Assembly: GCF_000002425.4 (NCBI RefSeq)
Contig: NC_037256.1
Location: 5,737,648-5,801,647 of the forward strand
From: Physcomitrium patens
Lineage: Eukaryota > Streptophyta > Bryopsida > Funariales > Funariaceae
Length of the DNA stretch: 64,000 nt
Reading direction: 5' to 3'
Shown: positions 14,472-64,000 of the stretch, piece after piece
Layout of the letters: every line of letters starts with the position of its first letter
How positions within the stretch are numbered: the first letter of the stretch is position 1
The notes under the pieces: model-generated
The model's database searches: none
What the model was told of the DNA's origin: nothing
What the model saw: the letters and a program-made list of their open reading frames with translations, nothing else
Made by a program: the position numbers and the translations under genes

Positions 14472-14738
14472 TCTAAAAGAAGGACAAAAATGACCCTATA
14501 AGAGGCAATATTGGTTTATAGGAGGGTAATCCACAACCTATAAAATGCCTTAAGAATTTCAAGAAGAGGGGTAATCCACTCTCTCCAAGAAGAATAAGAC
14601 TCCAATATTGTAACAGAAGAAGTATCAGTTTAGAGGAGGGTAATCCGCAACCTCTAAAAAATGCTAGTATACCTTCAAGTAGAGGGGTAATTCACACTCT
14701 ACTAAGAAAGAACTAGCTCTGATATCTCAAGTTAGTGT

Positions 14739-14749
14739 AGTCTCGACAA
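14739..14749 (-). promoter_or_regulatory. Self-primer binding site of CV2-a (11 nt)
   Basis: In element sense TTGTCGAGACT lies two bases after the 5' LTR. It is the exact reverse complement of the LTR 11-mer at 14877-14887, which sits about 32 nt after the TATA box. Complementarity ends at 11 nt on both sides. Confidence 0.75.
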
Positions 14750-14876
14750 ACTGTCACGGATACAAAATACAGACTTGAAATCTAACAAGAAGTTCAAGAA
14801 GAAGTGGCAGAACTAGATTAAACAGATGAGTACAAGAACAACACCAGAAAGGTGAACTAGAACTCCAAGAGATGTA

Positions 14877-14919
14877 TTGTCGAGACTGAAGAACTCTTCA
14901 ACCTTGATCCCTATATATA
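14877..14919 (-). promoter_or_regulatory. CV2-a LTR core promoter and predicted transcript 5' end (self-primer)
   Basis: The TATATATA box is at 14919-14912 (minus strand). The 11-mer AGTCTCGACAA begins at 14887, about 32 nt downstream, the normal TATA-to-start distance. It is the complement of the primer site at 14739-14749. The start is predicted from spacing only. Confidence 0.65.
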
Positions 14920-14929
14920 CTCCTACTTA

Positions 14930-15236
14930 GGAAGCTTCTCGAGCTACTTCTATTAACTAGGAAGCTTCTAGAAGGTTCCAGAGGCTTCCTTTCTAGAAGG
15001 TTCTAGAAACTTCTCGAGCTACTTTTATTAATTATGAAGCTTCTAGAAAGTTCTAGGGGATTCCTTTCTAGAAGCTTCTAGAAACTTCTCTTCTAGAAGG
15101 TTCCAGAGACTTCCTTTCTAGAAGCTTCTAGAAACTTCTCTCTAAAAGGTTCAAGAGGCTTCTCTTCTAGAAGGTTCCAGAGGCTTGTTTTCTAGAAGGT
15201 TCTAGAAACCTCTCTCTAGAAAGTTCTAAGGAATAT
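14930..15236 (-). promoter_or_regulatory. Heat-shock-element array in the CV2-a LTR
   Basis: Repeated TTCnnGAA units lie on a 5-bp phase upstream of the TATA box, for example TTCTAGAAGCTTCTAGAAAC, a perfect four-unit element. Variants TTCCAGAG and TTCTCGAG fill the gaps. This is the binding pattern of trimeric heat-shock factors. The 3' LTR carries the same array with one more 50-bp unit. Confidence 0.75.
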
Positions 15237-15251
15237 GTCCCTAACAAGTAG

Positions 15252-21250: not shown

Positions 21251-21832
21251 TATCAAGAATATCAGTTTTAAAGAATTAAAAGATCAATAAACTCTGTGTC
21301 ACTTAAGAAGTCTAAAAATACACTCAAAGATGGTATAATATTAAATTATAATAGCTATTGCCAAAGATAAGAAGACTAAAAAATCTCAAAATAAGACTAA
21401 GAACTAAAAGGTATTAATAAGAGTAAAAAAGACTTCACTCTTACTTCTATATATACTATATAACTAAAAGCTACGTGGCAATATTTTATAGGACCTCCAA
21501 TACATGTATAATTTGCAAGATACATATCTTATTTTTACTTTGCAAGATACATGTCTTATTTTTACTTTGCAAGATACATGTCTTAACTTGCAAAGTAAGT
21601 TTTTTATGTGTGTATCATATTATTAGCTTGTACCACAAGCTATCTATACGTGTGATACATTGCTAATTTTTTGGCCAAGTTTCTAACCTATTAATCAACT
21701 ACAAACATATATAAAGCCAAATATACATTTATAAAGCTTCTAAAAAGTTATGCTACAAGATAATATCAAATCTACATATATTTATCTTCTACTTAACACT
21801 TCTTATCTAAGTAAATATGTATGTTTGTGACA
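21251..21832 (-). repeat. 5' LTR of CV1-c
   Basis: It aligns with the CV1 solo LTR (36728-37288): shared 'cttcactctta', 'ctatatatactat', 'aaagctacgtggc' and the CCGTGACA-like end. It is preceded by a decayed self-primer site (near 21239-21250). It holds a local tandem duplication of a 31-bp 'tttgcaagatacatgtctta' segment at about 21509-21590. Confidence 0.7.
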
Positions 21833-22177
21833 ATATTTTCTTTTTTATTCTCTTTATATCAAGTTTCTTTAAAATACATTTAACATGATATAATGATATT
21901 CTTCTACTTATTTTTTAAAAAAAATAGTCAATTTTTATCAAGGTATATATATATATATATATATAGATATATATAGATATAAAAATAAATAAATAACAAG
22001 TTGTTAAAGCTATATCCCAATGTTATTAAAGCCATATCTTCAAATCTTGTAATGATTAATTTTGAGAGACAAAGAATATGGGATAGGAGATATGGGATAT
22101 GAGATGGAGATGAAGGATAGATGAAATCAATCATGAGATAGTTATGTAGGATGTTAAGTGTAATTTTAAAAACTCCA

Positions 22178-36639: not shown

Positions 36640-37484
36640 GGATTTGATTAGAATTTTTTAAAAATTGGTTTAGAATTGGTTTAAAATTTATTTCGGATTT
36701 ATTTAAGATTTGCTTAAGATTGATTTATGTCAAAGACAAGAACTCGATGAAAAAGCAATTCAGACAAGTGAGCCTTCACTCAAAGAAAGGTAACAAAATA
36801 TAAATAAACAAGTATGTATATTGAAAGAGAAACTGGAATGGCTATTGCAAAAAGACAAGAAAACTAGAGACCCTTGAAACTAGACTAGAAGCAAGAAAGG
36901 AGTTGACAAGAGTGAAGAAGGCTTCACTCTTATCTCTATATATACTATCTAACTAAAGGCTATGCGGCGATGTTCTATAGGACCTCCAATATGTGTTGAC
37001 TTTGTAGGACACATGCCTTGACTTACAAGGCAAGTTTTTCTACGTGTGGGCCACATAATTAGCTTGATCTTCAAGTTAACAATATGTGTGGCACATGGCC
37101 AACTTGTTGACGACGTTTCTAATCCAAAAAGTCAATTAAAGACACCTATGAAGTCAAAGCAGCGTCTATGAAGCTTCTAGAAAGCTTCTATATTAAATAC
37201 TATAGAATTAACTTACTTTTATCTACTTTTACTTACTTCTACCTATTTGTATATGTAATTGCTAGCTTACATGAGTATGTCCGTGACAATTTAAGGTTTC
37301 ATTAAGATTTGATTTAGGATTTAAGATTTGTTTAGAGCTTGATTAGAATTGGTTTAGAATTTGGTTAAGATTTATTAAAGATTTTATTTGGATTTGATTA
37401 GGATTCAATTGAAATTTCTATTTTTGATATTTTTAAAAATTTATTTTTATTATTTTATTAAGATTTTTATTTTATTATTTTTTT

Positions 37485-42552: not shown

Positions 42553-44153
42553 TCACAAGTCTCACTTATTTATTTGTCTTTATTATGTTTTCATCTTTGA
42601 CAGATTGACAAGACTACACCTACAATATCAGAGCTTTGTCTAATGTTGATTAAAAGTGGATTACATCTTTTTTTTGATAAGATACATGCATATTAAAAGT
42701 TGTGGATTACCCTCTTCTAAATTGATATTGTCCTTACTATTTTCTTTGTTCTCAAGTCCTCTCTTCTATTTGACTAGAGCGATATTAGATATCTTCTCTT
42801 TTCTAAGTGTTATCATGGCAAAACTTTTTGAAATGAAGACTGCAATGGCACAAATGCAAGAGCAATTGAGGGAGTTAATGCTTGCGATGCATCAACTCAA
42901 TTTACCACTACAAGGAGCAACAAGATTGGCAAGAAGTGAAGATATAGAAATGATTGGAGCTGCTTCAATATCTACACCAAATCATATCCCTTCTTCTATG
43001 GTCGAACGTCCTTTCAGTATTAGAGAACCAAGAATTATCCTACTCGAGAAGTTTGATGGTACCAGATCCAAGTTTCAAGGATTTATCAATCAAGTGCAAC
43101 TTGTGATTGAACTTCAATGTCAAAGCTATCCAATTCTAGGATCGCAAGTTAAATTCATTAGTATGCTTCTTTCAGATTGAGCACTATCGTGGTTTTCATC
43201 TTTTCTTGAATGACGAGATTCAATATTGGATAATCTAGAGGCTTTTTTGGTGAAGTTTCAATCCATGTATGGAGAATATGATGTAATTCGTGTTGCAATC
43301 AATAAGATCCATATTTTATAATAAAACAATCGATCAATAATGTTGTATGCTTCACAATTTTGACAACTTGCAACTGATATGAAGAAAGATGATACTACGT
43401 TTATTAGCTAATTTCTCCACGGATTGCAATATGAGGTAAAAAAATTAATGCTCAACTTATCTGATCCTCAAACATTGAGTCAACCAATTGACTTTGCTGT
43501 GATGTGTGACAATCACGTTTTTGAATTCCAATCTGAGAAACGTACAAGTGGACCTCAACATTATTATAATTCAATGGCAACACCAACACATCATCAACAC
43601 ATACATTTAGAAGTAGAAGATATGCAAATTGATACAGTACGTTTCAAACTTCTTACCGAGCAAGAAAAGACTTGTCATCATCAAGAAAGATTGTACTTAT
43701 ATTGTGGAGAACCTAAGCACAATGCTCAATATTATCCAAAAAAGCAACGCAACTATAAAATGAGGAGTACGGTGATCAAAGAAGATAGTATGTCGTAAAA
43801 CAAACTTGTCCAGCTACAATAGGGACTGTGCGGCTGGAACCTTGTACAATGCCTAGTGAAGGTCCTATCCTCTCTTTAGAACCCTCTCCATGTTTTATGA
43901 TAAATATTATTCTAGGACCTAAACATCTCAAAGCCTTTGCCTTGCTAGATTCAGGAGCCTCAGCATGTTTCTTAGATGAAAAATTTGCTAAAAGACATAG
44001 CATATTTTTAATAAAGAAAACTAAACCTGTTCATGTAGAAATCATAGATGGTCGTCTGTTATCTTCAAGAGATGTTACTCATGAAATCTTTTTTTAGATA
44101 TAGTAATTAATGGTCATAATAGCTTTATAATATTTAATATCATTAAATCTCCT
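42553..44153 (+). pseudogene. CV1-b: LTR end, primer site, gag and protease start (host of CV1-a)
   Basis: Only the last about 50 bp of the 5' LTR remain (42553-42603), followed by primer site TTGACAAGACT (42605-42615, one change from CV1-a). Gag starts at ATG 42817 with the same order as CV1-a, a CCHC knuckle at about 43695 (CGEPKHNAQYYP, one Cys lost) and stops near 43180. The protease piece ALLDSGASACFLDEKF is at about 43930-43990. The frame is cut at 44153 by CV1-a and resumes at 50391. Confidence 0.8.
44149..44153. repeat. Target-site duplication of CV1-a (left), CTCCT
   Basis: The same five bases lie at 50391-50395. Joining across the element restores the continuity of the CV1-b protease region. 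Confidence 0.9.
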
Positions 44154-44235
44154 TGTCACGGACATACATATAATTACCTATATGAATAGATAAAAGTATG
44201 TAAAAGTAGATAAAAGTAGGTTAATTGTGTAATAT

Positions 44236-44263
44236 CTTCTAGAGAAGCTTCTTAGAAGCTTCA
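44236..44263 (+). promoter_or_regulatory. Heat-shock-element-like cluster in the CV1-a LTR
   Basis: Two AGAAGCTTCT units (GAAnnTTC) with flanking TTCTAGAG lie about 225 bp upstream of the TATA box. It is weaker than in CV2 but the same motif, also present in the solo LTR. Confidence 0.5.
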
Positions 44264-44461
44264 TAGACGCTGCTTTGACTTTATAGGAGTCTATAGTTGA
44301 CTTTTAGGTTAGAAACTTGGTCAACAAGTTAGCCATGTGCCACACATGTTGGAATCTTAAAAAACAAGCTAACTACGTGGTCCATCCATAGAAAACTTGC
44401 CTTGCAAGCAAAGGCATGTGGCCTAGAAAGTCAACATATATTGGAGGTCTTATAGAACATC

Positions 44462-44471
44462 GCCACGTGGC
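44462..44471 (+). promoter_or_regulatory. G-box palindrome GCCACGTGGC
   Basis: A perfect 10-bp palindrome with core CACGTG lies 15 bp before the TATA box. G-boxes bind plant bZIP and bHLH factors. Repeated in the 3' LTR. Confidence 0.55.
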
Positions 44472-44485
44472 TTCTAGTTAGATAG

Positions 44486-44527
44486 TATATATAGAGACAA
44501 GAGTGAAGGCTTCTTCACTCTTGTCAA
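44486..44527 (+). promoter_or_regulatory. CV1-a LTR core promoter and predicted transcript 5' end (self-primer)
   Basis: TATATATA at 44486-44493; ACTCTTGTCAA at 44517-44527, 31 nt from the box start. This 11-mer is the exact complement of the primer site 44696-44706. A perfect 13-bp inverted repeat (44496-44508 with 44513-44525) brackets the predicted start. Confidence 0.7.
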
Positions 44528-44695
44528 CTCCTTTCTTGCTTCTAGTCTAGTTTCAAGGGTCTCTAGTTTTCTTGTATTTTGGCAATAGCCATTCCAGTTT
44601 CTTTCTTAATATACATATTTCTATTTTGTCCTATTTCTTTTTGAGAAAAGTCTCACTTACTCTTTAGCTTTCATCGAGTTCTTGTCCTTGACAGA

Positions 44696-44706
44696 TTGAC
44701 AAGAGT
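44696..44706 (+). promoter_or_regulatory. Self-primer binding site of CV1-a (11 nt)
   Basis: TTGACAAGAGT lies two bases after the LTR. It is the exact reverse complement of the predicted mRNA 5' end (44517-44527). No TGG-starting tRNA site adjoins the LTR. A 9-mer TATCAGAGC, matching most of the usual initiator-tRNA site, lies further on at 44717-44725. Confidence 0.78.
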
Positions 44707-44904
44707 ACACTTACAATATCAGAGCTTTGTCTTTTTTTGATTAAGAGTGGATTACCCCTTTTTCTTGATAAGACATAAGCGCATTAGAAGTTGCGGATTA
44801 CCCTCTTTTAAACTGATATTGTTCTTAGTATTTTCTTTGTTATCAATTCCTCTCTTCTATTTTGAGCGTTATTAGACATCTTCTCTTTTCTAAGTGCTAC
44901 TACT

Positions 44905-45912
44905 ATGGCAGAGCTTGTTGAAATGAAGAGTGCAATGGCACATATGTAAGAACAATTGAGGGAGTTAATGCTTGCGATGCATCAACTCAATTTACCACCA
45001 CAAGGAGCAACAAGAATGGTAGGAAGTGAAGATATAGAGATGATTGGGGCTGCTTCAACATCTGCACCAAACCATGTCCCTTCTCCCAGAATGGAACACC
45101 CTTCGAGTGTTAGAGAACCAAGAGTTGCCTTGCCCGAGAAGTTTGATGGTACCAGATCCAAGTTTCGAGGATTCATCAATCAGGTCCAACTAGTGATTGA
45201 ACTTCAACCCCAGAGCTATCCAACTCCAGGGTCACAAGTTAGATTCATTGGTACACTTCTTTCAGGTTCAGCATTGTCATGGTTTTCATCTTTTCTTGAA
45301 CGACGAGATCCAATATTGGATAATTTGGAGGCTTTTTTGGCGGAGTTTCGATCCATGTTTGGAGAACATGATGCAATTCGTGTTGCAATCAACAAGATCC
45401 GTATTTTGCGACAAGGCAATCGATCAATAACATTATATGCTTCGCAATTTCGACAACTTGCAACTGATATCAAGTGGGATGATGCCGCACTTGTGAGTCA
45501 ATTTCTCTACGGATTACAATATGAGGTAAAGAAATTGATGCTTAATTTACCTGATCCTCAAACATTGAGTCAAGCAATTGACTTTGCTGTGAAGTGCGAC
45601 AATCGACTTTTTGAATTTCGATCCGAGAGTCGCACAAGTGGGCCTCAACGTTACTACAATTCAATGGCAACACTGACGTCTCCTCAACACATACCTTCAG
45701 AAGTAGAGGATATGTAAATTGATGCGGTATGTTTCAAACCTCTTACTGAGCAAGAAAAGTCTCGTCGTCGACAAGAAGGATTGTGCTTATATTGTGGAGA
45801 ACCTAAGCACACTACTCAACATTGTCCAAAGAAGCGACGCAACTACAAAATGAGGAGTACGGCTGTCAAAGAAGACAGTATGTCGGAAAACGAGTACGTC
45901 CAGCTACAATAG
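44905..45912 (+). pseudogene. gag: CV1-a gag (two nonsense codons)
   Basis: The gag frame runs from ATG 44905 to TAG 45910-45912. Order: N-terminal helix (LREL and LAMHQLNLP), gag core (LPEKFDGTRSKFRGFINQV and ALSWFSSFLERRDP at about residues 90-140), and one CCHC knuckle (CLYCGEPKHTTQHC). Two Gln codons are TAA: one near 44950 (CV1-b has CAA) and one near 45715 (CV2-a and CV1-b have CAA). Both are C-to-T changes. Pol follows in the -1 frame with a 24-nt overlap after the heptamer. Confidence 0.9.
45885..45891 (+). promoter_or_regulatory. Putative -1 frameshift heptamer GGAAAAC (CV1-a gag-pol)
   Basis: Read as G GAA AAC in the gag frame, 24 nt before the gag TAG, with pol open in the -1 frame across the site. 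GGAAAACGAG is identical in CV2-a at the same distance from the stop. Confidence 0.5.
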
Positions 45913-48900
45913 GGACCGTGCGGCTGGAATCTTGTACAACTTCTAATGAAGGTCCTATCCTCTCCTCAGAACCATCTCCTTGTTTTATAATAGATGTGCG
46001 TTTAGGACCTAATAATTACAAAGCCTCTGCCTTGGTAGATTCAGGAGCCTCATCTTGTTTTTTAGATGAAGAATTTGCTAGATGTCATAGAATATCATTA
46101 ATACAAAAAACTAAACCTGTACACGTAGAAGTCATAGATGGTCGTCCGTTGTCTTCTGGAGATGTAACTCACGAAACACTTCCTGTAGATGTAGTAATAA
46201 ATGGTCATAGTAGTTGCGTAATTTTTAATATAATTAGATCTCCCTCTAATCCAGTTATTTTAGGCTTATCATGGTTAGAAAAGTATAATCCTCGAATAGA
46301 TTGGATTTCTCATAAACTTGATTTTCCTCAGAGCATTAGTAACAGTTCTATTAATCAAGTAAAAAACCATGAGTCTAGTATAGTAAAATCCGCACTTATA
46401 GGTGCAAAAGCATTTATACACGCAGCAAAAGAAGGATCAACTTTTGCTATTTATGCTGCACCTATTTCTGAAAGCGTAAAGACTTCAAGTGGCATTCCAA
46501 GTCAATATCAGGATTATCAAGACGTTTTTGAGAAAAAGAATGCAGATATTCTTCCTGAGCATCGCCCATACGATTGTTCAATTGATCTCAAGGAAGGAAC
46601 TCAGCCACCATTTGGACCAATTTACAGTTTATCGCAAGATGAGTTGGCTGAACTCAAGACATATATTGACGAGAATTTAGCGAAGAATTTCATACGCCAT
46701 TCAAAATCTCCAGCAGGAGCTCCAATTTTATTCGTAAAGAAAAAAGATGGATCTTTACGAATGTGTGTTGACTATCGAGGACTCAACAAGATCACAATCA
46801 AGAACAGGTATCCATTACCTTTGATATCAGGACTCCTTGACCAGTTAAATCAAGCTAAGATCTATACAAAAATAGATCTAAGAGGAGCATATAATCTAGT
46901 ACGGATCAAAGAAGGAGATGAATGGAAGACTGCGTTTCGAACTAGGTACGGGCATTTTGAATATAATGTCATGCCTTTTGGACTCACGAATGCACCAGCT
47001 GCTTTTCAACATCTCATGAATGATGTATTTCGTGAATTCTTAGACAATTTTGTCGTCTGCTACCTCGACGATATCCTGATTTATTCTAAGAATGTTGAAG
47101 AACATGAAATACATGTTCGTCAAGTATTACAAAAACTTAGAGATGCAGGATTGTACGCCAAGATGGAAAAGTGTATATTTCACACTACTCAAGTTGACTT
47201 TTTAGGATACATCATTTCAAATGATGGTCTTATGATGGATTCTAAGAAAGTCCAAACAATCATGGATTGGAAGATTCCAAAGACTGTAAGAGATGTCCAA
47301 TGTTTCTTGGGATTTGCCAATTACTATCGGATCTTCATCAAAGACTTCTCACGAGTTGCAGCTCCACTTACACGCTTGACTAGTAAAGATAAATTCCAAT
47401 GGAATCAAGAAGCGGAAGCAGCATTTGAAGCCTTGAAGACATCGTTTGTCTCTGCACCAGTCTTATATCGTGTTGACTTTTCCAAGGTATTTTTTATGGA
47501 AACAGACGCATCGGATTTTGCCTTGGGTGCAGTTTTATCACAAATGGGAACAGATGACAAACTTCATCCGATAGCTTTTCATTCAAGAAAATTCTCAGCA
47601 GCCGAGATCAATTATGAGATCCATGATAAAGAACTTCTTGCAATCGTGGATTCTTTTCAAGAATGGCGTCATTATCTAGAAGGTGCTTCTAGTCCAGTCA
47701 CTGTGTATACAGATCACAAGAACCTCGAGTATTTCATGTCAGCACGCGTGTTGAATCGTCGTCAAGCTCGTTGGAGTATGTCTTTGTCAAGATTCGACTT
47801 CATTATCACTTATCGGCCAGGAAAACAACAAGGTTTGTCCGATGCCCTGTCTAGACGTTCTTATTTTGCACCAAAAGAAGGAGATGCAGCTTTTGAGCAA
47901 CAAAGAACGGTCCTCTTGAAACCGGAGCAATTTCATCTCCGAGCAGTGAAATCAACATTGACTGTTGATTCAACTTTTCTCAAGCAAATCCAGTCCAGTA
48001 TGTCCTCAGACCCTCTTGTTCATGATATCGAGAATAATTCTTCCAAGTCTCATGATTCTTCTAAGTTCGAGTTCAAGAATAATCTATTATATTTTGAAGG
48101 ACGCCTATATGTTCCAGAAGGAAAAGCACGTTTGCGTGTTCTTCAAGCATGTCATGACTTTCCAGCAGCAGGGCACTTTGGATATAATAAGACTCTGGAA
48201 CTCATATCAAGAGATTTTTGGTGGCCACAAATGTGGAAGTCAGTCAAAGACTTTGTACAATCATGTGATATTTGTTCAAGATCAAAAATTCCTCGACATC
48301 GACCTTACGGACTTCTTCAGCCATTACCTATACCAGAACAACCATGGTCTTCTGTTTCTATGGATTTCATCACAGATCTTCCAAACTCAAGATCTTATGA
48401 TTCTATATTTGTGATAGTAGATCGTTTCACCAAGATGGCACATTTTATGCCATGTACAAAATCTATCACAGGTGAAGAAACAGCTAAGCTTTTCATTGAT
48501 AATATCTATCGCTATCATGGATTACCTAAAGATATCATATCGGATAGGGGAACTCAATTTGTGTCGAGATTCTGGAGGACTCTTTTCAAGATTTTAAAAG
48601 TGGACATAAAGCTATCTTCAGCTTTCCATCCTCAAACTGATGGACAAACAGAGCGCGTAAACCAAGTCTTGGAACAGTATTTAAGGTGTACCATCAACTA
48701 CCAACAAGATGATTGGACAAACCTTCTGCCATTGGCAGAGTTTGCTTATAATAATACGGTACATTCCTCCACGCAACAAACACCTTTCTTTGCCAATTAT
48801 GGCTATCATCCACGACTTGATACTTTTGATTTTTCAAAAGTTGATAATCCTGCAGCAGAAGATATGGCAAATCGGTTGTCAGAGTTACATGCAATAATGA

Positions 48901-49406
48901 AGGCGCAGTTGAAGAAAGCTCAAGAACGACAAAAGATAAATGCAGATGTATATCGTAAAGAGCAACCACAACTCAACGTGGGTGATAAGGTATGGCTACT
49001 TCGTCGCAATATCAAGACCACTCGACCTTGTGACAAATTGGACTATCGTAGGCTTGGCCCCTTTTCTGTTTCTGAATAGATCAACCCAGTTGCATATCGG
49101 TTACATCTACCGGAGTCAATGAAGATCCATCCTGTATTCCACGTGTCTCTTCTTGAACCATATAAGACAGTGGATATACAAGGAAGAAGACAAATGCCAC
49201 CGCCTCCTATAGAAGTAGATAATAATGAAGAATTTGAGGTGGAAGAGATATTAGACTCAAGGCGGCGCCGAAATAAGTTGGAATATCTTGTTCATTGGTG
49301 CGGATATGATATTAGTGAGCGCACATGGGAGCCATCCAGGAATCTAGCAAATGCATTAGCTAAAGTCAAAGTTTTTCATCAACGACATCCATCAAAACCA
49401 AGATGA
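45886..49406 (+). pseudogene. pol: CV1-a pol: protease, RT, RNase H, integrase, chromodomain (one stop)
   Basis: Nearly intact. The main frame (to 49079) numbered from 45822: retropepsin DSG at 73-75; RT with catalytic YLDD at 414-417; RNase H with first Asp at about 562 (ETDASDFALG); integrase zinc domain from His778 (HDFPAAGHFG to SCDICSR); DDE triad Asp848, Asp908, Glu944 with the standard 35-residue D-E gap. A TAG at 49077-49079 replaces a Gln codon (CV2-a has CAG), then the frame continues through HPVFHVSLLEPY to a chromodomain (LEYLVHWCGYDISERTWEPS) ending at 49406. The chromodomain should direct integration to methylated-histone chromatin. Apart from the single stop all catalytic residues are present. 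Confidence 0.95.
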
Positions 49407-49446
49407 AAACCTCTCTTATAAAAGAGACAAGATTGAGGCAAGATAA

Positions 49447-49809
49447 CATTCAATTTCCTATCCTCAACCTTCAAGACAACGCAACCGAGATGAAGACCCT
49501 CAAGAACGACATGTTCTTCCTCGAATAGATGGTGAGATACAACGCATTTGGTATCACGACCTTGGAAGAGATTCTCGATGTTTGGTGATATTATTGGAGA
49601 TAGGAACGACTCCTGATGGTGTTTCAAATGTATTATTTGAAGGAAGTTATGAAGGCCTCAAAAATGATCAAATAACAGGGTGGTCTTCTCGCCCTGGAAT
49701 GGGACACTATCGATGGCTAAGAGGACCCATCAACTATCTTCGAAGAGAACAAAGATCAGAGTATGTAGCAAATACAATTCGCCGCATATTAGATTTTCTC
49801 AATATATAA
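49447..49809 (+). CDS. CV1-a extra 3' reading frame (ORF3), unknown function
   Basis: An open frame of 120 codons between the chromodomain ORF and the polypurine tract, in the +1 frame relative to the chromodomain. It has no ATG near its start, so it may be reached by frameshifting, splicing or non-AUG initiation, or the start may have been lost. The N-terminal third is charged and Arg-rich. The rest contains VILLEIGTTPDG, GMGHYRWLRGPINYL and RREQRSEYVANTIRRILDFL, which aligns with CV2-a ORF3 (9506-9853). The spacing of W, GHYRWL, G, N, L and REQ is the same in both. No family is recognised. It could be an accessory or a C-terminal Pol domain. Confidence 0.6.
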   Translation, partial: HSISYPQPSRQRNRDEDPQERHVLPRIDGEIQRIWYHDLGRDSRCLVILLEIGTTPDGVSNVLFEGSYEGLKNDQITGWSSRPGMGHYRWLRGPINYLRREQRSEYVANTIRRILDFLNI

Positions 49810-49836
49810 TCACCGCTCCTCGTGGAACTCGTCCCT

Positions 49837-49850
49837 AGAAGGGGGGGTAA
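49837..49850 (+). other. Polypurine tract of CV1-a
   Basis: AGAAGGGGGGGTAA lies directly before the 3' LTR. Confidence 0.85.
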
Positions 49851-50390
49851 TGTCACGGACATACATATAATTACCTATATGAATAGATAAAAGTATGTAA
49901 AAGTAGATAAAAGTAGGTTAATTGTGTAATATCTTCTAGAGAAGCTTCTTAGAAGCTTCATAGACGCTGCTTTGACTTTATAGGAGTCTATAGTTGACTT
50001 TTAGGTTAGAAACTTCGTCAATAAGTTAGCCATGTGCCACACATGTTGGAATCTTAAAGAACAAGCTAACTACGTGGTCCATCCATAGAAAACTTGCCTT
50101 GCAAGCAAAGGCATGTGGCCTAGAAAGTCAACATATATTAGAGGTCTTATAGAACATCGCCACGTGGCTTCTAGTTAGATAGTATATATAGAGACAAGAG
50201 TGAAGGCTTCTTCACTCTTGTCAACTCCTTTCTTGCTTCTAGTCTAGTTTCAAGGGTCTCTAGTTTTCTTGTATTTTGGCAATAGCCATTCCAGTTTCTT
50301 TCTTAATATACATATTTCTATTTTGTCCTATTTCTTTTTGAGAAAAGTCTCACTTACTCTTTAGCTTTCATCGAGTTCTTGTCCTTGACA
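49851..50390 (+). repeat. 3' LTR of CV1-a
   Basis: 540 bp, matching the 5' LTR except about four substitutions. Followed by the CTCCT duplication (50391-50395). Confidence 0.96.
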
Positions 50391-50696
50391 CTCCTTTTAA
50401 TCCAGCCATTTTAGATTTATCATGGCTAAAAAAATATAACTCTAAAATAGATTGGACTTCTCATAGTCTTGACTTTTTTGAAAGTATAACTAAGAGTGTA
50501 CTTAATCAAGTAGAAAGTCATAAGTCTAGTATAATTAAACCTATATTTGTAGGTACAAGTGCTTTCTTGCATGCAGCAAAAGAATGATCACCTTGTGTCA
50601 TTTATGCTACACTTGTTTCTATTGGTGGAAAGACTTCAAGTGGCATTCCAAGCCAATATCAAGATTTCAAAGATATATTTAAAAAAAAGAATGCAG
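50391..50696 (+). pseudogene. CV1-b pol continuation (protease-RT linker), cut by TG-6
   Basis: It continues the CV1-b frame after the CV1-a insertion: equivalents of NPVILGLSWLEKYN, then VGTSAFLHAAKE and SGIPSQYQDFKDIF, KKNA. It stops at 50696, where the TG-6 LTR begins (TGTCGTATTACG). Confidence 0.85.
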
Positions 50697-52247: not shown

Positions 52248-55200
52248 CTATTCGTCTTCGTCACCTTCATTATCCAAATCACTTTCATCTTCTTGCTGCT
52301 GAATTTCTATACCTTCATTATGGTCTTCCATATTCATCTCTGCGTGTCTTCGTTTAAATATTTTTACTCGCTTCCCTGCAGTTGGTATTTTCAATTTTAT
52401 ACCATCTAACTCCCAGAACGAGTAAGTCGCATTATCATGAACTATTGTTACGACATATGGTCCAAACTAACGTTTTGAAAATTTTTGCAAAGTACTATGT
52501 TGATTATCCAGACTATTGTCATAAACAAGTACCCAGTCACCTTCCTCGATTGCTTTTGGTCTCAATCGATGTTGCTTATCGAATCGCGCCTTGTTTTGTA
52601 ACCTAGCTCTTTTTAACCTTTCCAATGCTATCTGGACATCTTCCGTTCTTTGCTCCAATTGTCGAATCCTAATAGCCAGAAGTTCTTCTCTTGTCAATCC
52701 ATCTTCCCATGGTAGCATACTCCAAGTAAGTATCTTTTCTTCAATCAGCATAATTGGTTTTTGACCTGTCATAAGTTCTACTGGCATATATCCTGTCACC
52801 GAACTATGTGTTGTTCGATCAGCCCATAATGCAAATGACAAAAGCCGTGGCCACTCTTTAACTTTCCCATTACAAGCTTTAACTAAGGCTTTCACAATCG
52901 GTGGGTGACCGCGTTCACTTTTTGCATTCCCTTCTGGATTATAAGCAGTATTCAGTGATAGTTTAACTCCACATCTTTCAAAGAACTTACGAGCTTCTTG
53001 TGCATTTAATTCTCCATGATCTGCAGTGATTTTTCCTACACACCCGTAACGGCAAATGACATCTTCGAGCAAAAACCTACAAATCCCCTTTGTAGATTTT
53101 GTCCTCAATGCTCTTCCTTCTACTTGATTCGATAAATCTTCACGAGCTAAAACCAAATATCTCATCTGCCATAACCCAACCGGCATAATAACCAAATCAA
53201 CAACCCATTTAAAATGAATAGCCAGAGGATACGTAGGATGAAGACCATCTCGATGTCGAATATTAGAATACGATTGACAGATTTCACATGACTCTACAAA
53301 TGAGAGCACATCTCGATACATATTTTTCCACCAATATCGTTCCTTGAGTTTAGCAAAAGTAGCCCAGATTCCTCTATGCCCTGCCCATAAACTATCATGG
53401 AACTCCTTTAATAATTTTAGTTTTTCTTCCCTTTTGCCTATCACTCGTTGTGGCATCCCAATTCCTTTCTTCGGTCTCTTCCATAAGAATCCATCTCGAA
53501 GTAAAAATCTATATGCTTTTTTTCTTATTTGTTTGAATTTTTCTATAGACCAATTCTCCTGCTTAGTCAAGGTATTCAAGTAATGACCAATATCCAATAA
53601 TTCTCCTTTATAAGATTCTCCAAGAAATAGCTTGTCTTCTCTGTTGAGATTTGATATTGAATAGAATTTCAATCCGACGTCATCAATGTCTTCAACCATT
53701 TCGTCCTCCCTCTCGTATCTTACTCGAGATAGCATATCTGCTACTAAATTGTCCTTCCTAGTAATATGCTTAAATTCTGGATTTAGTGACTTAATATAAG
53801 CAATCCATCTGAACATTGCAATATCTAGCGTTGAACAGTTAATAATCATTCCAAGCAATGGCAAGCAATCTGTTTCAATTACTACTACTGCCCGAATCAA
53901 ATAGTCCTTTTCAGCTTTCATAGCCGAAACGACTCCCCAAAGTTCTCTTTTGACTTGCGAATATGCACGCTGACGAATACTTAAAACTTTAGTCCCAAAC
54001 CGAACTGCAAATCTATTCCCACTGGAATCATCTTGACCCACAGCCCATCCAATGGCAATTGGACTAGCGTCTACACTAAGAATCACTGGTCTATTGCACT
54101 TATAATCAACCTTCTTCAATATTGGAGGTGACATCAATAATTTCTTCAATCTTTGCATTGCCTGAATATGCCTTTCTTTCCATTCAAATCGGTAACCCTT
54201 GCGTAACAGTTCATATAATGGATCTGCTATGTGAGCAAAATGAGGGATCCAGATTCGATAAAATACACATGCACTCAAAAACCTGCGAACGTCTGTTAAA
54301 GAATCACAATCCTCTTTCATCCTTCCAATTGCATCAACTTTAGTCGGATCTGGTTTTCTTCCGTAAGATCCGCATAAATGTCCAACAATTACAACCTCTC
54401 GTACTCCAAATACGGACTTCATACCCGATAATGTAAGATGAACTTCTCCAAGCCGAGTTAAAATCTTTTCACAATCTTGTATATGATCAACAACATATCT
54501 GCGACACCCCCTCGTATCTAAAGTTTCATCCTTGTCTCCTTCTTTGCACCCTTTTATAGGAACATCATCCAGAAAAGGCATAGTCTTTTCCGGAATAAAA
54601 TCTCTCAATACCTTATTCATCCCATTCATCATATGCGCAACTGAGTTGGTCGCGCCTTGAGGAAGAGTGCACATTCTAACCAATCCAAGCGGTGTCCTCA
54701 TCGTTGTCATATCTCTACTTCCTTCGGCAAGTTGAAATTGATCATAACCTGAATACAAATCACCCATTGAATAGATCGCCCTTCGAGCAAACGCCTCAGC
54801 AAATTCATCCACAATAGGCTCAATTTCTGCATTCCTGACAGTTATTGCATTCACCGGTTGCATATCTTGAATAAACTGTAGTGACCCATTCTTCTTAGGT
54901 ACCGTAAACCATCAACTAGAATACGGCGTAAATGAGGGTTTCAATATTTTCATCTTTATCTTTTCTTTTAATAGTTCAACCAATTTAGGTAAATGTGCCC
55001 TCGGTACTGGAATCGGTCTTAGATTCCAAGGTACATGTGGTACAGTGAAGATAACCATAGGTGTTATAATATTTGGATCCACACACCCAATTTCATGAGA
55101 TTCGAAGGCAAACGATCTATCTTATTTAGCCAACATCTTTTTGAAGCAAGTAATTTCGTCCGGTAATAAAGAACCATCAGAATCAATCTTCAATTCTTCA

Positions 55201-55721
55201 AAAGTCTCTTTAGTAAACTGATGTCTAATACTCATTGGATCTCTTAAACTTGCTTCTTTTGATGCTTCTCCCATTTGTTCTTTAGAATCTTCTGGTAATG
55301 GTATGGCAACAGGCTTTACCTTCTTATCTGCCGTTTTATATCTCGTCTCTATAGTGACTTCTGGTGCTTGAAAAGATTCAAGTATGGTATAAACCTCTCT
55401 TGAATGAATCTCAACAATCTTATCATTATCCCCTAACCCAATAGATGTAATCAATTCCAATGAATCTTCCAGTCCATTTTCTTCATAAACACCTAAAATC
55501 CTCTCATCATCTTGCAATGCACCTAACTTGCGTAATTGTCCTTCAATATCATATAATCTTTTTCTTTCTTTTCTTTTAAAATTATCTACTTTCTTATACA
55601 TAATATTTCCATTCTCCTATATACCAATAAAATTGGCATCAAAGGTACCTTCATCTCGCGAGAGTACCTCCTCTTTTGTACCTCCATAATCTCGCTTTAC
55701 AGTGGTACCTCCCCAAAATCC
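52248..55721 (-). pseudogene. pol: TG-6 pol: RT, RNase H, integrase and a C-terminal tail (several stops)
   Basis: Pol begins at the frameshift site (55715-55721). The leader 55601-55122 (MYKKVDNFKRKERKRLYDIE) has no recognised domain. The main frame 54863-52467 carries RT (catalytic FLDD at residues 97-100, NSVAHMMNGMNKVLRDF), RNase H (SVDASPIAIGWAVGQDD, ETDCLPLLGM), integrase zinc finger (HDSLWAGHRG to SCEICQ) and a DDE-type core (WVVDLVIMP, ITADHGELNAQ, GNAKSERGH). After a TAG the tail (FGPYVVTIVHDNATYSFWEL, acidic end) runs to 52248. No chromodomain is seen. Stops: TAA at about 55122, TGA near 54915 and TAG near 52467. Confidence 0.9.
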
Positions 55722-58069
55722 TTAAATCCTTCAATAATCTTTAGCAATGGTTTCTCCTTCAACCTATCTCGATTCCGTTCATGATTAGGAGGTACTGTTA
55801 GAAATTATACAGCTTTCCTCCCATCCTCGCTACGTACCCTGGCATAAGCAGAACTATCGTCAAGTACTTTTGTTTCCATCCGTATTGCTGTAATATAAGG
55901 TTGTCCTAAAATCAACGGATAAGACGTTGTATCCTGAACAATGAAATGTTGTTCCATCGCAACATCCCCAATCCGAATTTTGACATCTGGACAAGCTCCA
56001 TATAATTTGCCCTATGTGTTATTAGCTGCTCGTATTGCCCATCCATGTTCCATATCAATCGGCCATTTTTGCTTCTTATAAAGATCTTTAGACATGAGAT
56101 TTATTTCAGAACCATGGTCGACTAAAGCAACAATTGGTTCTTCTATATCTCCTACTTTCACCAATACCTCAGTAGTTGCCCTTGCCCAATGCTTTCGAGT
56201 ATAATGGCTCAAAGTTTCCATTTCTTTGTCACTAGAATCTTCAAAATGTACTCGTTGATTATACCCATTCCTTTCATTTGTTGGTTGCTTGTAACCAATA
56301 TCAACCTCTTCTTCATCTTTATATATTCTTGCATCAATAGCATGACTCATTCCAGTTTCGCCCATTAATTGCCTCTTTCGCTTAATGCTGTCAATGATGA
56401 CATCATGAAACTCCCTCTTTGCAATTTCCAAGACTTCTTTCAAAGTGAATTCCACCTTAGCGTTTAATATACGTTCTTCCAGCACCTCTTTCAAATCTAT
56501 TGCCGCTTCAATGTCAGAAAGTAGCTTATAAGCAATTGATTTGCCCTTATCTTTTGTCTCCTTTGTTTTTTCTCTCAATGATGCTGAGGTATCCTTTACA
56601 GGTAATTCTTGTGAAGCTGCCTCCCGAGCCTTGTCTCTTCGAGTTTGCCTCTTAGAAGAATTTCCTTCTCTACTATCATCAAAATTTCCTCGTCTCTTTT
56701 CTTCCATCAAAGCTTCATGTTGGCTCTTAGCAATATATGCATGAACTGAAAGAGACTCAACAGGATCCTCCCAACCTGTTTTATCTCGTATTGTAGCTGC
56801 AGTTCTCAATAACGCTTCTCGAGGTAATTTCCCTTCTTGCATTGTAGAAACAGCAGAAGCCCAAAACTCACTAGTTTCCGTACTTCCACCAATTTCATCA
56901 TCTACTCTAGCACCATAACTTGTACTTTCTCGTGCTGCTGTTTCATGCTCTTTTAGGTAATCTTCAACCAATGCTCTCATTCCTCCCTTGCCAAAATTGA
57001 TTTGAAGAAGATCCTCCCTATCTTTCAATGCTATTTTCCCATCTTTCCAGCAAATAATTCCCTGCCGTATCATATTATTAAATTCATTGCAATCTTTTCT
57101 AGTGTGTGAAGCATCATCACACCAAATGCATCTTTGTACGTATCCTTGTTTTGAAACATTCTTCAAATTGTTTATAGAAGTATTCTCTTCAAGTCTTGCC
57201 AATTTGATTTGAAGATCTCGCATTCCTTGTATAATTTCTTCTATCTCCATATCTGCTTTCTGTGATAAGGATGTCGAAGGTTGAACTGTAGGCATTGTCG
57301 GTGGTGTTGTACGTACTGGAGCTTTGGGTGCTTGTACTGTTTTCGGAATATTGCTTCTATCCTTCCTCCTTTCTTTTTTTGTAAGCAACCCCATCGCATC
57401 TTCAACGTTCTTCCACTTTGTTGTCAATCATTCAACTTCTTCTTTATCTTCAAGAAGAAGTTCTAATTTCCCTTGCAATTTTCCATCAGCAGCTTGAAGA
57501 AATAGAGCAACTTTGTTTGGCTCCAATATCAATTTTTCTACCTTCGATAATTGAAAGTACCGCCTCTCAAATTCCCTTAGTAGCTTTGTTGCTTACAAAT
57601 TCTTATTGGGCCATTCAATCCATTCCAGAAACAGCTTCTTAGTAACGCGATCAGCATCTTCTAAGAAATATTTGTCTTTCAATGCATGTGAAAAATCCTC
57701 CCATGAATTCCCATAACGATTCGTAATCGATGTAATGTGGTCCCTTATCTCCGGTATCGTGGCAAGTCCAAATAGTGCAACTATTTTCTTCTCAGAAACC
57801 CGATTTAATTCCATTTCACGAACATAACATCTTAAATACCTTAAAATATTCCTCCCATCAAATTGATCAATTTTATTGATCACTGCTTGTTATGCTTTGG
57901 TTGCCAAAGCTTCCTTTCGATCATTGCTTTGCTGTTGCTGCATTGACAATGAGAAGGCTTGAAACATACTAGCAATAGATGGATCCATGTGCATACCTTG
58001 TTCTGTAGAAGACTCCCCACTAGAAACTCCTCCCAAAAATCCTTCAAAATTTTTATTTTTGTTTTCCAT
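55697..58069 (-). pseudogene. gag: TG-6 gag with protease (five stops)
   Basis: Starts at ATG 58069-58067. Order: short leader, poly-Gln, capsid-like helices (IDQFDGRN to LKDKYFLED), basic linker, CCHC knuckle (CIWCDDASHTRKDC), a long charged region, and a retropepsin-like site ALVDHGSEINLMS. Stops: TAA after ALATKA and TGA after KEEVE (both shared with TG-7), plus TG-6-only stops after PNKNL, after AANNT and after GRKAV. The protease site has His where most retropepsins have Ser or Thr. Confidence 0.9.
55715..55721 (-). promoter_or_regulatory. Putative -1 frameshift heptamer GGATTTT (TG-6)
   Basis: Same sequence and frame as 63468-63474 in TG-7, 16 nt before the gag TAA. Confidence 0.5.
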
Positions 58070-58117
58070 AAAATAAAGATAAAATCAACCAAAATCCAAT
58101 ACCTTCTACCTCAAGCT

Positions 58118-58139: not shown

Positions 58140-59632
58140 TGTCGTATTACGTGCTTTCCTGCTCAAGAATGCGCCGGGCATCTGGCTGTAGAAGGTAGTA
58201 TGAAGATTCGCCAATAATCAAGCAGTCTATCAGTTTTTGACTACTGGAATATAAACGACTGTAAGAATACACCATAAATCTATACGGATGTCCTTCGACT
58301 GCTTGTCGAAGTCCTTTTTGCCCCAGTCGGTAGGTCTCTAGACGTTACAGAGAACCCCGAAGAACCCAATCTGCTAATCTCTGATACCGCTTTGTACTTA
58401 CGATCTTGTATCCACTGACTGTCTTGTTAGATTAATCCAATAAATTTCATTCACTCCGCATACTCAATCCTATAGACACCCTTTTAACTCTTCATCACAG
58501 ACATAACTTGATTTCATAAAACAGTCAAGAGTAATCAAACCTACTTCATTAAAAATCCCGATTCACCATTACAACATTGACTTCAGCAACGATTGCCTCA
58601 GTCTTCCTTAAACTCTATGAAGAAGAAAAATCCAATTCCCTGACTTTTCTTCCCTGACCCCGAAGTATGAAGCTCCTCTCCAATTCCCCTGATCTTCAAA
58701 AACCTCTAATGAAACCGAACTAGTAACCTTGAAAAAAACTTGAAGCTAGCTCTTCGATCCAAAAAACCCCCCCCCCTCTGATCTGAAAAAAAAAAAAAAA
58801 AAAAAAAACCCCCCCAAAAACTTATATCCCCCCCTTAACCTTATCCTCTGAATTTTTTTAATCTTTCGTCTTGGATCTGGAATTGGCTCCCACCGTCAGA
58901 GCTTAGATCCGAAATTGGCTCTCGCCATCAAAGCTTTCTCCTCCGTTTCTACCTTTAAGAGATCCATTTACCGAAAACAACGTTTCCTGAAACAGAAAAT
59001 AGGACAGCCTGAAACAGAATCGAATCCCGTAATCGGGACCACATTGAGTCGCTCGACCAATTCAGGTCTCATATTAGATAAGAGTCTAGTAGTAGGACCC
59101 GGATTTTCCCGTACTCAGACTGCATTGGGTTGCCCGACCAATGCAGGTCTCATATTGGGTAAGATGCCCGTAGTAACCTCGATGTTCTCGTAATTACTCT
59201 GCATTGGATTGCCCGACCAATACAGGTCTCATATTGGATAAGAGGACCCGGAGTAAGACCTGGATTTTCCCGTAATCAGACTGCATTGGGTTGCCCGACC
59301 AATACAGGTCTCATATTGGGTAAGAGGACCCGGATTGGATTCTCGAAATTGGATCCAATTGGCTCTTTGACCCAGGCTCACCCGTCGTGTGAATTGGTCC
59401 TTTTCCTTCCTGCTGACTCCCATTATTGGAATGGAATGGAGCATTTCAGTATGCCCCGGTTGACTGGAACGGGATGACTGAACCTGGCCACTCAGTATTT
59501 GCACTGGAGTTGGTCGTGCTCCNNNNNNNNNNNNNNNNNNNNNNNNNNNNNNNNNNNNNNNNNNNNNNNNNNNNNNNNNNNNNNNNNNNNNNNNNNNNNN
59601 NNNNNNNNNNNNNNNNNNNNNNATATTCGCGG
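58140..59632 (-). repeat. 5' LTR of TG-6, broken by TG-7, with assembly gap
   Basis: It is nearly identical to the 3' LTR (50697-52158) up to 59522. After the Ns, ATATTCGCGG (59623-59632) continues the LTR as at 52080-52091, then stops at the TG-7 terminus. The remaining about 70 bp of the LTR should lie beyond TG-7. Confidence 0.85.
59523..59622. other. Assembly gap, 100 N
   Basis: Exactly 100 Ns, the usual placeholder for a gap of unknown length. Comparison with 52076-52091 suggests very little or no sequence is really missing there. Confidence 0.97.
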
Positions 59633-61070: not shown

Positions 61071-61119
61071 AGCTTGAAGTAGAAGGTATTGAATTTCGAT
61101 TGATTTTATCTTTATTTTT

Positions 61120-63492
61120 ATGGAAAACGAAAATAAAAATTTTGAAGGATTTTTGGGAGAGGTTTCTGGTGGGGAGTCTTCTAAAGGACAAGGTATGCAC
61201 ATGGATCCGTCTATTGCTAGTTTGTTTCAAGCCTTCTCATTGTCAATGCAGCAACAGCAAAGCAATGATCGAAAGGAAGCTTTGGCAACCAAAGCATAAC
61301 AAGCAGTGGTCAATAAAATTGATCAATTTGATGGGAGGAATATTTCAAGGTATTTAAGATGTTATGTTCGTGAAATGGAATTAAATCGGGTTTCTGAGAA
61401 GAAAATGGTTGCACTATTTGGACTTGCCACGATACCGGAGATAAGGGACCACATTACATCGATTACGGATCATTGTGGGAATTCATGGGAGGATTTTTCA
61501 CATGCATTGAAAGACAAATATTTCTTAGAAGATGCTGATCGCGTTACTAAGAAGCTGTTTCTCGAATGGATTGAACGGCCCAATAAGAATTTGCAAGCAA
61601 CAAAGCTACTAAGGGAATTTGAGAGGCAGTACTTTCAATTATCGAAGGTAGAAAAATTGACATTGGAGCCAAACAAAGTTGCTCTATTTCTTCAAGCTGC
61701 TAATGGAAAATTGCAAGGGAAATTAGAACTTCTTCTTGAAGATAAAGAAGAAGTTGAATGATTGACAACAAAGTGGAAGAACGTTGAAGATGCGGTGGGG
61801 TTGCTTACAAAAAAAGAAAGGAAGAAGGATAGAAGCAATATTCCGAAAACAGTACAAGCACCCAAAGCTCCAGTACGTACAACACCACCGACAATGCCTA
61901 CAGTTCAACCTTCGACATCCTTATCAAAGAAAGCAGATATGGAGATAGAAGAAATTATACAAGGAATGCGAGATCTTCAAATCAAATTGGCAAGACTTGA
62001 AGAGAATACTTCTATAAACAATTCGAAGAATGTTTCAAAACAAGGATATGTACAAAGATGCATTTGGTGTGATGATGCTTCACACACTAGAAAAGATTGC
62101 AATGAATTTAATAATATGATACGGCAGGGAATTATTTGCTGGAAAGATGGGAAGATAGCATTGAAAGGTAGGGAGGATCTTCTTCAAACCAATTTTGGCA
62201 AGAAAGGAATGAGAGCATTGGTTCAAGATTACTTAAAAGAGCATGAAACAGTAGTACGAGAAAGTGCAAGTTATGGTGCTAGAGTAGATGATGTAATTGG
62301 TGGAAGTACGGAAACTAGTGAGTTTTGGGCTTCTGCCGTTTCTACAATGCAAGAAGGAAAATTACCTCAAGAAGCGTTATTGAGAACTGCAGCTACAATA
62401 CGAGGAAGAACAGGTTGGAAGGATCCTGTTGAGTCTCTTTCAGTTCATGCATATATTGCTAAGAGCCAACATGAAGCTTTGATGGAAGAAAAAAGACGAG
62501 GAAATTTTGATGATAGTAGAGAAGGAAATTCTTTTAAGAGGCAAACTCGAGGAGACAAGGCTCGGGAGGCAGCTTCACAAGAATTGCCTGTAAAAGATAC
62601 CTCAGCATCATTGGGAAAAAAAACAACGGAGACAAAAGATAAGGGCAAATCAATTGCTTATAAGCTACTTTCTGACATTGAAGCGGCAACAAATTTGAAA
62701 GGGGTGTTGGAAGAACGTATATTAAACGCTAAGGTGGAATTCACATTGAAAGAAGTCTTGGGAATTGCAAAGAAGGAGTTTCATGATGTTATCATTGACA
62801 ACATTAAGCGAAAGAGGCAATTAATGAGCGAAACTGGAATGAGTCATGCTATTGATGCAAGAATATGTAGAGATGAAGAAGAGGTTGATATTGGTTACAA
62901 GCAACCAACAAATGAAAAGAATGGGTATAATCAGCGAGTACGTTTCGAAGATTCTAGTGACAAGGAAATGGAAACTTTGAGCCATTATACTCGAAAGCAT
63001 TGGGCAAGGGCAACTACTGAGGTATTGGTGAAGGTAGGAGATATAGAAGAACCAATAGTTGCTTTGGTGGACCATGGTTCTGAAATAAATCTCATGTCTA
63101 AAGATCTTTATAAGAAGCAAAAATGGCCAATTGATATGGAACATGGATGGGCAATACGAGCAGCTAATAACACACGAGGCGAATTATATGGAGCTTGTCC
63201 AGATGTCAAAATTCGGATTGGGGATGTTGCGATAGAGCAACATTTCTTCGTTCAAGATACAACGTCTTATCCGTTGATTTTAGGACAACCTTATATCACG
63301 GCAACACGGATGGAAACAAAGGTACTTGACGATGGTTCTGCTTATGCAAGGGTACGGAGCGAAGATGGGAGGAAAGCTGTACAATTTCTAACAGTACCTC
63401 CTAACCATGAACGGAATCGAGATAGGTTGAGGGAGAAACCATTGCTAAAGATTGTTGAAGGATTTAAGGATTTTGGGGAGGTACCACTGTAA
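61120..63492 (+). pseudogene. gag: TG-7 gag with protease (two stops)
   Basis: Starts at ATG 61120. Order: leader (MENENKNFEGFLGE), poly-Gln, capsid-like region (61306-61761), basic linker, CCHC knuckle (from 62059: CIWCDDASHTRKDC), a charged region with a coiled-coil-like segment, and a protease-like site VDHGSE (63067-63084) followed by GQPYI-type flap text. Only two stops break it, TAA at about 61299 and TGA at 61759-61761, and both occur in TG-6. The 576-codon frame 61762-63492 is otherwise clean. It ends at TAA 63490-63492; pol follows in the -1 frame. Confidence 0.9.
63468..63474 (+). promoter_or_regulatory. Putative -1 frameshift heptamer GGATTTT (TG-7)
   Basis: Read as G GAT TTT in the gag frame. 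The -1 frame opens right here: its last stop is TAA at 63465-63467, and gag ends at 63490. The overlap is thus 25 nt and contains this heptamer. GGAUUUU is an established slippery sequence in a plant virus. Confidence 0.55.
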
Positions 63493-64000
63493 AGCGAGAT
63501 TATGGAGGTACAAAAGAGGAGGTACTCTCGCGAGATGAAGGTGCCTTTGATGCGAGTTTTATTGGTATATTGGAGAATGGAAATATTATGTATAAGAAAG
63601 TTGATGAATTTAAAAGAAAAGAAAGAAAAAGATTATATGATATTGAAGGACAATTACGCAAGATAGGTACATTGCAAGATGATGAGAGGATTTTGGGTGT
63701 TTATGAAGAAAATGGGCTGGAAGATTCATTGGAATTGATTACATCTATTGGGTTAGGGGATAATAATAAGATTGTTGAGATTCATTCGAGAGAAGTTTAT
63801 ACCATGCTTGAATCTTTTCAAGCACCAAAAGTCACAGTAGAGACGAGATATAAAACGGCAGATAAGAAGGTAAAGCCTGTTGCCGGACCATTACCAGAGG
63901 ATTCTAAAGAACAAATGGGAGAAGCATCAAAAGAAGCAAGTTTAAGAGATCCAATGAGTATTGGACATCAGTTTACTGAAGAGACTTTTGAAGAATTGAG
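63468..64000 (+). CDS. pol: TG-7 pol, N-terminal part (partial)
   Basis: Open to the window end in the -1 frame. It contains MYKKVDEFKRKERKRLYDIE from 63588, an acidic YEENGLEDSLELI segment and ETRYKTADKKVKPV, all as in TG-6. No catalytic domain is reached. No stop is seen in the visible part, unlike TG-6. Confidence 0.8.

Follow-up and report, generated by a model that had tools for sequence, protein, structure and literature searches.

Predicted self-priming in two chromovirus families of Physcomitrium patens and a covarying palindrome at their putative transcript start

A 64,000-nucleotide (nt) stretch of the 470,438,890-base Physcomitrium patens assembly (positions 5737648-5801647; hereafter the window) contains members of two families of long terminal repeat (LTR) retrotransposons, here called CV1 and CV2, which are represented by the element CV1-a on the forward strand and the element CV2-a on the reverse strand (Table 1). 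Both CV1-a and CV2-a encode gag and pol of the Ty3/gypsy type with an integrase. A chromodomain was detected in CV2-a (PF00385, E 1.7e-12), and the pol frame of CV1-a ends ahead of the chromodomain in this copy, the domain being present in the closest database protein to CV1, P0001 (100% after rounding, across the region searched). CV1-a is itself nested in an older CV1-like copy (42557-44153 and 50391-50696), which it splits with a CTCCT duplication. In both families, a short site just beyond the 5′ LTR is the exact reverse complement of a sequence downstream of the TATA box in the same LTR, and on the strength of these sequences and of their recurrence elsewhere CV1 and CV2 are read, with a probability of about 0.83, as Ty3/gypsy chromoviruses that prime themselves in the manner of the Tf1/Sushi (Tcn1) group.

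Table 1. Features of the CV1 and CV2 elements, in window positions. PBS, primer-binding site; U3, the unique 3′ part of the LTR; RT, reverse transcriptase; RNase H, ribonuclease H.
Feature	Position	Strand	Basis or remark
CV1-a, whole element	44154-50390	+	LTR pair and target duplication
CV1-a 5′ LTR (TGTCA...TGACA)	44154-44693	+	99.3% identity to 49851-50390 over 540 nt
CV1-a TATA box TATATATA	44486-44493	+	direct reading
CV1-a palindrome, U3 arm GACAAGAGTGAAG, repeating most of the primer-binding sequence a third time	44496-44508	+	13 bp with 44513-44525
CV1-a palindrome, downstream arm, overlapping the self-primer	44513-44525	+	complementarity to the U3 arm
CV1-a putative transcript start and 11-nt self-primer ACTCTTGTCAA	44517-44527	+	exact reverse complement of 44696-44706
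CV1-a PBS TTGACAAGAGT	44696-44706	+	2 nt past the LTR end
CV1-a gag reading frame	44956-45717	+	PF03732 (E 2.6e-15), PF19259
CV1-a pol frame (protease, RT, RNase H, integrase)	45822-49079	+	PF00078, PF17917, PF17921, PF00665
CV1-a polypurine tract AGAAGGGGGGG, ahead of the 3′ LTR	49837-49847	+	direct reading
CV1-a 3′ LTR	49851-50390	+	second primer copy 50214-50224 within intact palindrome 50193-50222
CV1-a target duplication CTCCT	44149-44153, partner 50391-50395	+	direct comparison
CV2-a, whole element	15246-8908	-	5-nt target duplication CTACT on both flanks
CV2-a 5′ LTR	14752-15246	-	LTR comparison, boundaries
CV2-a putative start and self-primer AGTCTCGACAA	14877-14887	-	reverse complement of 14739-14749
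CV2-a PBS TTGTCGAGACT	14739-14749	-	pairs with 14877-14887
CV2-a 3′ LTR	8908-9452	-	second primer copy 9033-9043
Third CV1-like LTR (83% identity), containing a primer and palindrome (36900-36941)	36728-37289	-	LTR comparison
Older CV1-like copy, PBS TTGACAAGACT	42605-42615	+	host copy of the CV1-a insertion
Old diverged LTR of the CV1/CV2 group	21350-21835	-	mismatched pair, decayed at primer and binding site alike (ACTCTTATTAA / TTGACAAAAGT)

The primer-binding site (PBS) of CV1-a, TTGACAAGAGT, begins two bases beyond the end of the LTR and is the exact reverse complement of ACTCTTGTCAA, whose first base lies 31 nt after the first T of the TATA box TATATATA. The corresponding pair in CV2-a consists of TTGTCGAGACT and AGTCTCGACAA, the latter 32 nt after its TATA box. 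As a sequence-only reading of the window had claimed, the 11-mers of the two families differ at positions 2, 6, and 8, with all three differences compensated in the partner, and the longest match found is exactly 11 nt in both window copies; a 12-nt match occurs instead in the CV2 copy L009 and in two contigs from other assemblies described below (L033 and L035). The pairing of primer and PBS is present in the minimum-free-energy and centroid folds of both window leaders. A spacing of 31–34 nt from the TATA box and the point at which the complementarity ends both point to an RNA that would start at the first base of the primer.

Complementary 11-mers may in principle meet by chance, and single matches do arise, as 11 of the 18 matches in a scan of contigs from other assemblies (including the viral contig L029) look like chance and the two controls of that scan gave 10 and 6. 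When the same 40-nt leader was resampled, an 11-nt match anywhere in the LTR appeared in 60 of 5000 cases for CV1 and 30 of 5000 for CV2, figures that overstate chance because this null retains the leader's own words and does not consider the fixed positions. When 264 kb of sequence, made up of the window and 20 systematic 10-kb genome stretches, was scanned blindly for a TATA, an 11-mer 24–39 nt on, and the reverse complement of that 11-mer 60–900 nt downstream, eight matches were returned. Seven of them belong to six CV1/CV2 elements, since two neighbouring registers of one element were both counted, and one is unrelated; the reversed control gave four matches and the complement-only control one. 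Genome-wide, exact CV1-type pairs were found at 3605 places and exact CV2-type pairs at 1639, with no match to the reversed-pattern control in either case; the patterns are self-reverse-complementary, so that forward and reverse counts denote identical places, and only the first of these places were viewed individually. The word ACTCTTGTCAA itself occurs 10,291 + 10,188 times in the genome, compared with 59 + 64 for the reversed word. Thousands of places, a fixed geometry, five different matched primers, and empty whole-genome controls refute chance as the source of the pairs, leaving it a practically negligible probability.

The same layout was met outside the moss assembly. A scan of bacterial and archaeal assemblies yielded 34 contigs encoding chromovirus relatives, which are presumably eukaryotic contaminants, and seven of them (L032, L033, L034, L035, L039, L043, and L058) hold a matched pair, with ACAGN right before a site starting TTG and the partner 31–34 nt after a TATA box. 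The primer is AAGGCGAACAA in L032, L034, L043, and L058, AAGGTGAACAA with one compensated change in L039, and ACTCTTGATCAA with a 12-nt match (L033:206-217 and 346-357) in L033, while L035 carries the CV2 primer. The remaining 27 contigs gave no such pair in the scan, the number of them reaching an LTR not being established, and two scans of viral contigs gave one short match, in L029, which had no pair in the pair scan. Eleven of the 34 contigs (L030-L034, L039, L043, L051, L053, L058, and L059) belong to the 'Trichormus' cyanobacterial assembly (ERR2144891), of which six are predicted to be self-primed and another, L051, carries a tRNA-type site as in plants. These contigs may stem from a cyanobiont-bearing plant, and if that host were a fern, self-primed chromoviruses would reach beyond mosses and club-mosses. 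In a pol tree, CV1, CV2, L033, L034, and L035 group with fungal and vertebrate rows, and a split supported at 100/100 separates them from rice, two Closterium rows, Haematococcus, and the tRNA-site contig L051.

Covariation between primer and PBS was judged from the differences between families, together with counts in the LTR hairpin described below. Among four primer types (CV1-a, L009 for CV2, L034, and L039), the binding site compensates all 28 of the 28 pairwise differences, which are mutually non-independent. The copy L009 stands for CV2 because the U3 arm of the palindrome has decayed in the 5′ LTR of CV2-a, and L033 was excluded for its 12-nt match and its lack of a hairpin.

Alternatively, CV1 and CV2 could be primed by a transfer RNA (tRNA), with the complementarity between the PBS and the repeated (R) region of the RNA serving to circularise, dimerise, or package it. 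The motif TATCAGAGC lies 10–14 nt past the 11-mer in both families (44717-44725; 14716-14724, minus strand), follows the self-PBS in 12 of the 14 P. patens elements with a readable PBS (the exceptions being L020 and an old window copy at 21236), and reads TGGTATCAGAGC in the CV2 copy L009 (L009:2379-2390), a sequence assigned to the initiator tRNA-Met. TGGTATCAGAGC has been described as a conserved plant primer-binding sequence (PMC7215508). However, in both LTRs the terminus falls 2 nt short of the 11-mer, and a primer placed 18–22 nt further in would shift the LTR end there; because the 3′ LTR of CV1-a also ends directly before the target duplication, the start of minus-strand DNA is placed at the 11-mer site. 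At the LTR edge, the 11-mers of both families do not start with the TGG of a tRNA-CCA site, a tRNA-Met site directly at the edge, as in Tekay, Reina, CRM, and Galadriel, is absent from CV1 and CV2, and L032-L035 are without TATCAGAGC in the stretch read after the site. Priming by tRNA is therefore considered very unlikely, and TATCAGAGC may be a relict, a second site, or chance. The idea that these elements switched from tRNA priming to self-priming and kept TATCAGAGC as a relict site is weakened by the same absence in L032-L035. The 20 sampled 10-kb stretches contained no tRNA.

Between the TATA box and the putative start lies most of the primer's reverse complement, which places the start within a palindrome. 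The sequence-only reading saw the pair of primer and PBS correctly but did not report this third covarying copy. The palindrome reads GACAAGAGTGAAG-gctt-CTTCACTCTTGTC in CV1, GTCGAGGCTGAAG-ggtt-CTTCAGTCTCGAC in the CV2 copy L009, and GTTCGCCTTGGT-ccca-ATCAAGGCGAAC in L034. The U3 arm compensates 28 of the 28 differences among the four primer types (counting G-U as a pair and keeping to one register in each group), and its pairing ends at primer position 9 in seven of eight tabulated elements and at position 10 in L039. In CV2-a, 12 of 13 pairs form in the 3′ LTR (one G-U) versus 11 of 13 in the 5′ LTR (two G-U). An alignment of 37 LTRs (31 distinct; 36 from P. patens loci and L035), which omits opposite-strand duplicates, two L007 rows that overlap L006, L011:3721 for an indel, and three spurious matches (L027:3164, L027:9221, and window:11227), showed 91.8% of cells paired versus 83.9% in shuffles, 28 double changes versus 9.0, and a covariation score of 0.293 versus 0.151, with none of 500 shuffles as high in any of these three measures; slid-partner controls paired in 41–56% of cells.

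Predicted energies separate the two primer copies of an element. In eight of ten elements, those with a stable hairpin (predicted at -16.9 to -22.8 kcal/mol), four of which have one primer in common, the net predicted binding to the PBS is -11.3 to -16.3 kcal/mol for the free 5′ primer copy and 0 to -4.7 kcal/mol for the hairpinned 3′ copy. The contrast is small in L033 (-12.7 vs -14.8) and in CV2-a (-10.4 vs -15.1), for which the energies come from the 5′ LTR copy and not from the 3′ LTR hairpin.

These features can be joined in a model of self-priming in which transcription would start 31–32 nt after the TATA box, the RNA would thus open with the 11-nt primer, and its 5′ end would fold back on the binding site just beyond the 5′ LTR. 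RNase H would then cut the RNA after nt 11, and the reverse transcriptase would extend the 11-mer into the unique 5′ region (U5). Since the primer would be copied into plus-strand DNA, every new copy would have its binding site rewritten from the primer sequence, and such rewriting would account for covariation without two independent mutations and for a match that ends at the presumed first RNA base in most elements. A transcript starting at this base would hold the primer-side arm without the U3 arm at its 5′ end, and both arms in its 3′ LTR. The primer copy in the 3′ R would then be locked in a hairpin of ~12–13 bp and could neither compete for the binding site nor be cut, and because cleavage there would harm the R on which strand transfer depends, a guard at this position would make sense. 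That the palindrome guards the 3′ primer copy, its third covarying copy in U3 solving the problem posed by a primer sequence at either end of the RNA, is proposed tentatively and at somewhat less than even odds; such a guard may apply in cis as a general rule among elements of the Tcn1 kind, of which L033 is, on its sequence, a variant without the putative guard hairpin. The palindrome thereby raises the question of how a self-primed element keeps its 3′ primer copy from pairing and being cut.

Covarying arms would likewise be produced without any guarding if the reverse transcriptase switched templates within an imperfect hairpin and converted one arm to match the other, template switching in near-palindromes being well established. 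The end of arm matching at primer position 9 in most elements, and the persistence of the hairpin with double changes in the diverged LTR L010, speak against such a by-product without being decisive, and this explanation is considered doubtful. The position of the palindrome, exactly between the TATA box and the putative start, would also suit a promoter element, either a dimeric protein site or a cruciform around the start. The CV1 and L034 types have only 2 of 9 primer-arm cross-pairs in common, yet each pairs with itself, and therefore base pairing is favoured over protein recognition; a promoter role is regarded as unlikely.

Several observations weigh against self-priming or against its uniformity among copies. 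Both sites are readable in 12 copies, of which seven match and five mismatch (L002, L005, L006, L020, and the window copy at 21236), and among copies not picked via the primer word six of eight match and two mismatch; the copies L001-L008 were chosen for holding ACTCTTGTCAA and are not a random sample of CV1 copies, and the count of 12 covers neither copies in which the PBS or R could not be read, nor the L007 duplicate, nor L023:753 and window:42557, for which R is not reliable. The expectation that the two 11-mers covary in further copies found clear support between families. Within families the copies show decay, and independent variation of the 11-mers, which the sequence-only reading had named as evidence against itself, does occur in these five copies. 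All nine changes from the family 11-mers (counted by hand) are, however, C>T or G>A, and the mismatches are therefore read as decay after insertion, through methylated cytosines, as expected of dead copies. No primer copy of the older CV1-like element was found beside its PBS, and in L030 both sites are present as a mismatched pair (read by eye).

Further points on the same side come from folding and phylogeny. In neither window element does the whole-leader fold exceed shuffles in stability. The side duplexes of the three-duplex 'pretzel' known from Tf1/Sushi elements (number of 200 shuffles that equal or better the element, 5′/3′ side: CV1-a 57/108, CV2-a 178/17, L009 186/0, L035 195/131, L034 25/7, L032 3/135, L043 27/193, L058 125/141, L039 4/36, L033 19/24) are no better than shuffles on either side of CV1-a and on the 5′ side of CV2 (178 and 186), and stand out on at least one side in L032, L034, and L039 and on the 3′ side of CV2 (17 and 0). 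In two other measures the hairpin alignment does not lie at the extreme of its shuffles (75 and 56 of 500). L033 shows no hairpin, and the 5′ LTR of CV2-a a weak one (186 and 237 of 1000 shuffles as stable). The pol tree holds one angiosperm reference (rice, on a long branch) and several long branches, and 10 of its 24 inner forks are open. Self-priming of the Tf1 type, as first suggested for the window, remains the best reading, given that the layout recurs with other matched primers, the position of the LTR end, the missing TGG, and the pol tree.

The U3 of the CV2 LTRs (9092-9452 and 14931-15246) consists of tandemly arrayed 25-nt repeats with TTCTAGAAGNTTC units, which presumably have the form of heat-shock elements, and this array suggests a heat-responsive CV2 promoter. 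Elsewhere in the window, an inverted repeat of 2.9 kb (96% complementary; 55190-58073 and 61116-63999) flanks a 100-N gap at 59523-59622 and may be either a large palindromic element or an artefact of assembly, and a GC-rich 57-nt minisatellite of ~8 copies lies within an AT-rich region at 6279-6727. The window also encodes a plant-type ferredoxin and an EDR2-like gene.

Among known systems, the Tf1/Sushi group (Tf1, Tf2, Tj1, sushi-ichi, and Tcn1) combines a chromodomain with the pretzel (PMC10085805, whose phylogenetic analysis takes in a P. patens element), and cleavage of Tf1 RNA falls between its bases 11 and 12 (PMC7175516). The side duplexes of the pretzel, in contrast, are not clear in CV1 and are one-sided in CV2. 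A palindrome across U3 and R that covaries with the primer is not mentioned in the accessible text of PMC10085805 or of PMC4600332, in which Tj1 is described. A hairpin-directed literature search, narrow and not covering the Tf1 originals and the supplements, found no description of a start-site palindrome in the portions seen; this negative being weak evidence of novelty, the covarying palindrome may be the new part of the present findings. Plant self-priming has also been predicted for the TAR-lineage Ty1/copia elements Houba and Osr-1 (PMC6317226), which belong to the copia superfamily, whereas CV1 and CV2 are gypsy chromoviruses.

The closest relatives are found in the Tcn1 clade, which in plants comprises a moss and club-moss clade and in which the majority of elements lack tRNA sites and are predicted to be self-primed, no other plant chromovirus group using self-priming according to PMC6317226. 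The P. patens PpatensLTR elements have been placed in this clade, and for its Selaginella member, SM-Tcn1, the authors reported no evidence for tRNA or self-priming (PMC2864245). Like CV1 and CV2, the clade has a type I chromodomain with an aromatic cage, which reads F/W/Y in P0001 and Y/W/Y in CV2 (by eye). Self-priming in moss Tcn1-type elements is therefore already predicted in print and is not new, and the question left by the sequence-only reading, whether the arrangement had been described for these plant elements, is answered at the level of the clade (PMC6317226, PMC2864245) but not at that of the primer bases, which are absent from the text seen; unlike the present analysis, these accessible texts mention no primer sequences, no covariation between families, and no start-site palindrome. 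By its abundance, CV1 is probably RLG1, the most abundant transposable element of P. patens, which has a chromodomain integrase and 5092 complete copies and is expressed in protonema (PMC7466625). The terms 'PBS' and 'Tcn1' have 0 occurrences in the RLG1 text seen, so that no priming site is named there. With CV1 and CV2, the prediction made for the clade can now be tied to named bases with thousands of genomic copies, in a plant that transcribes such an element.
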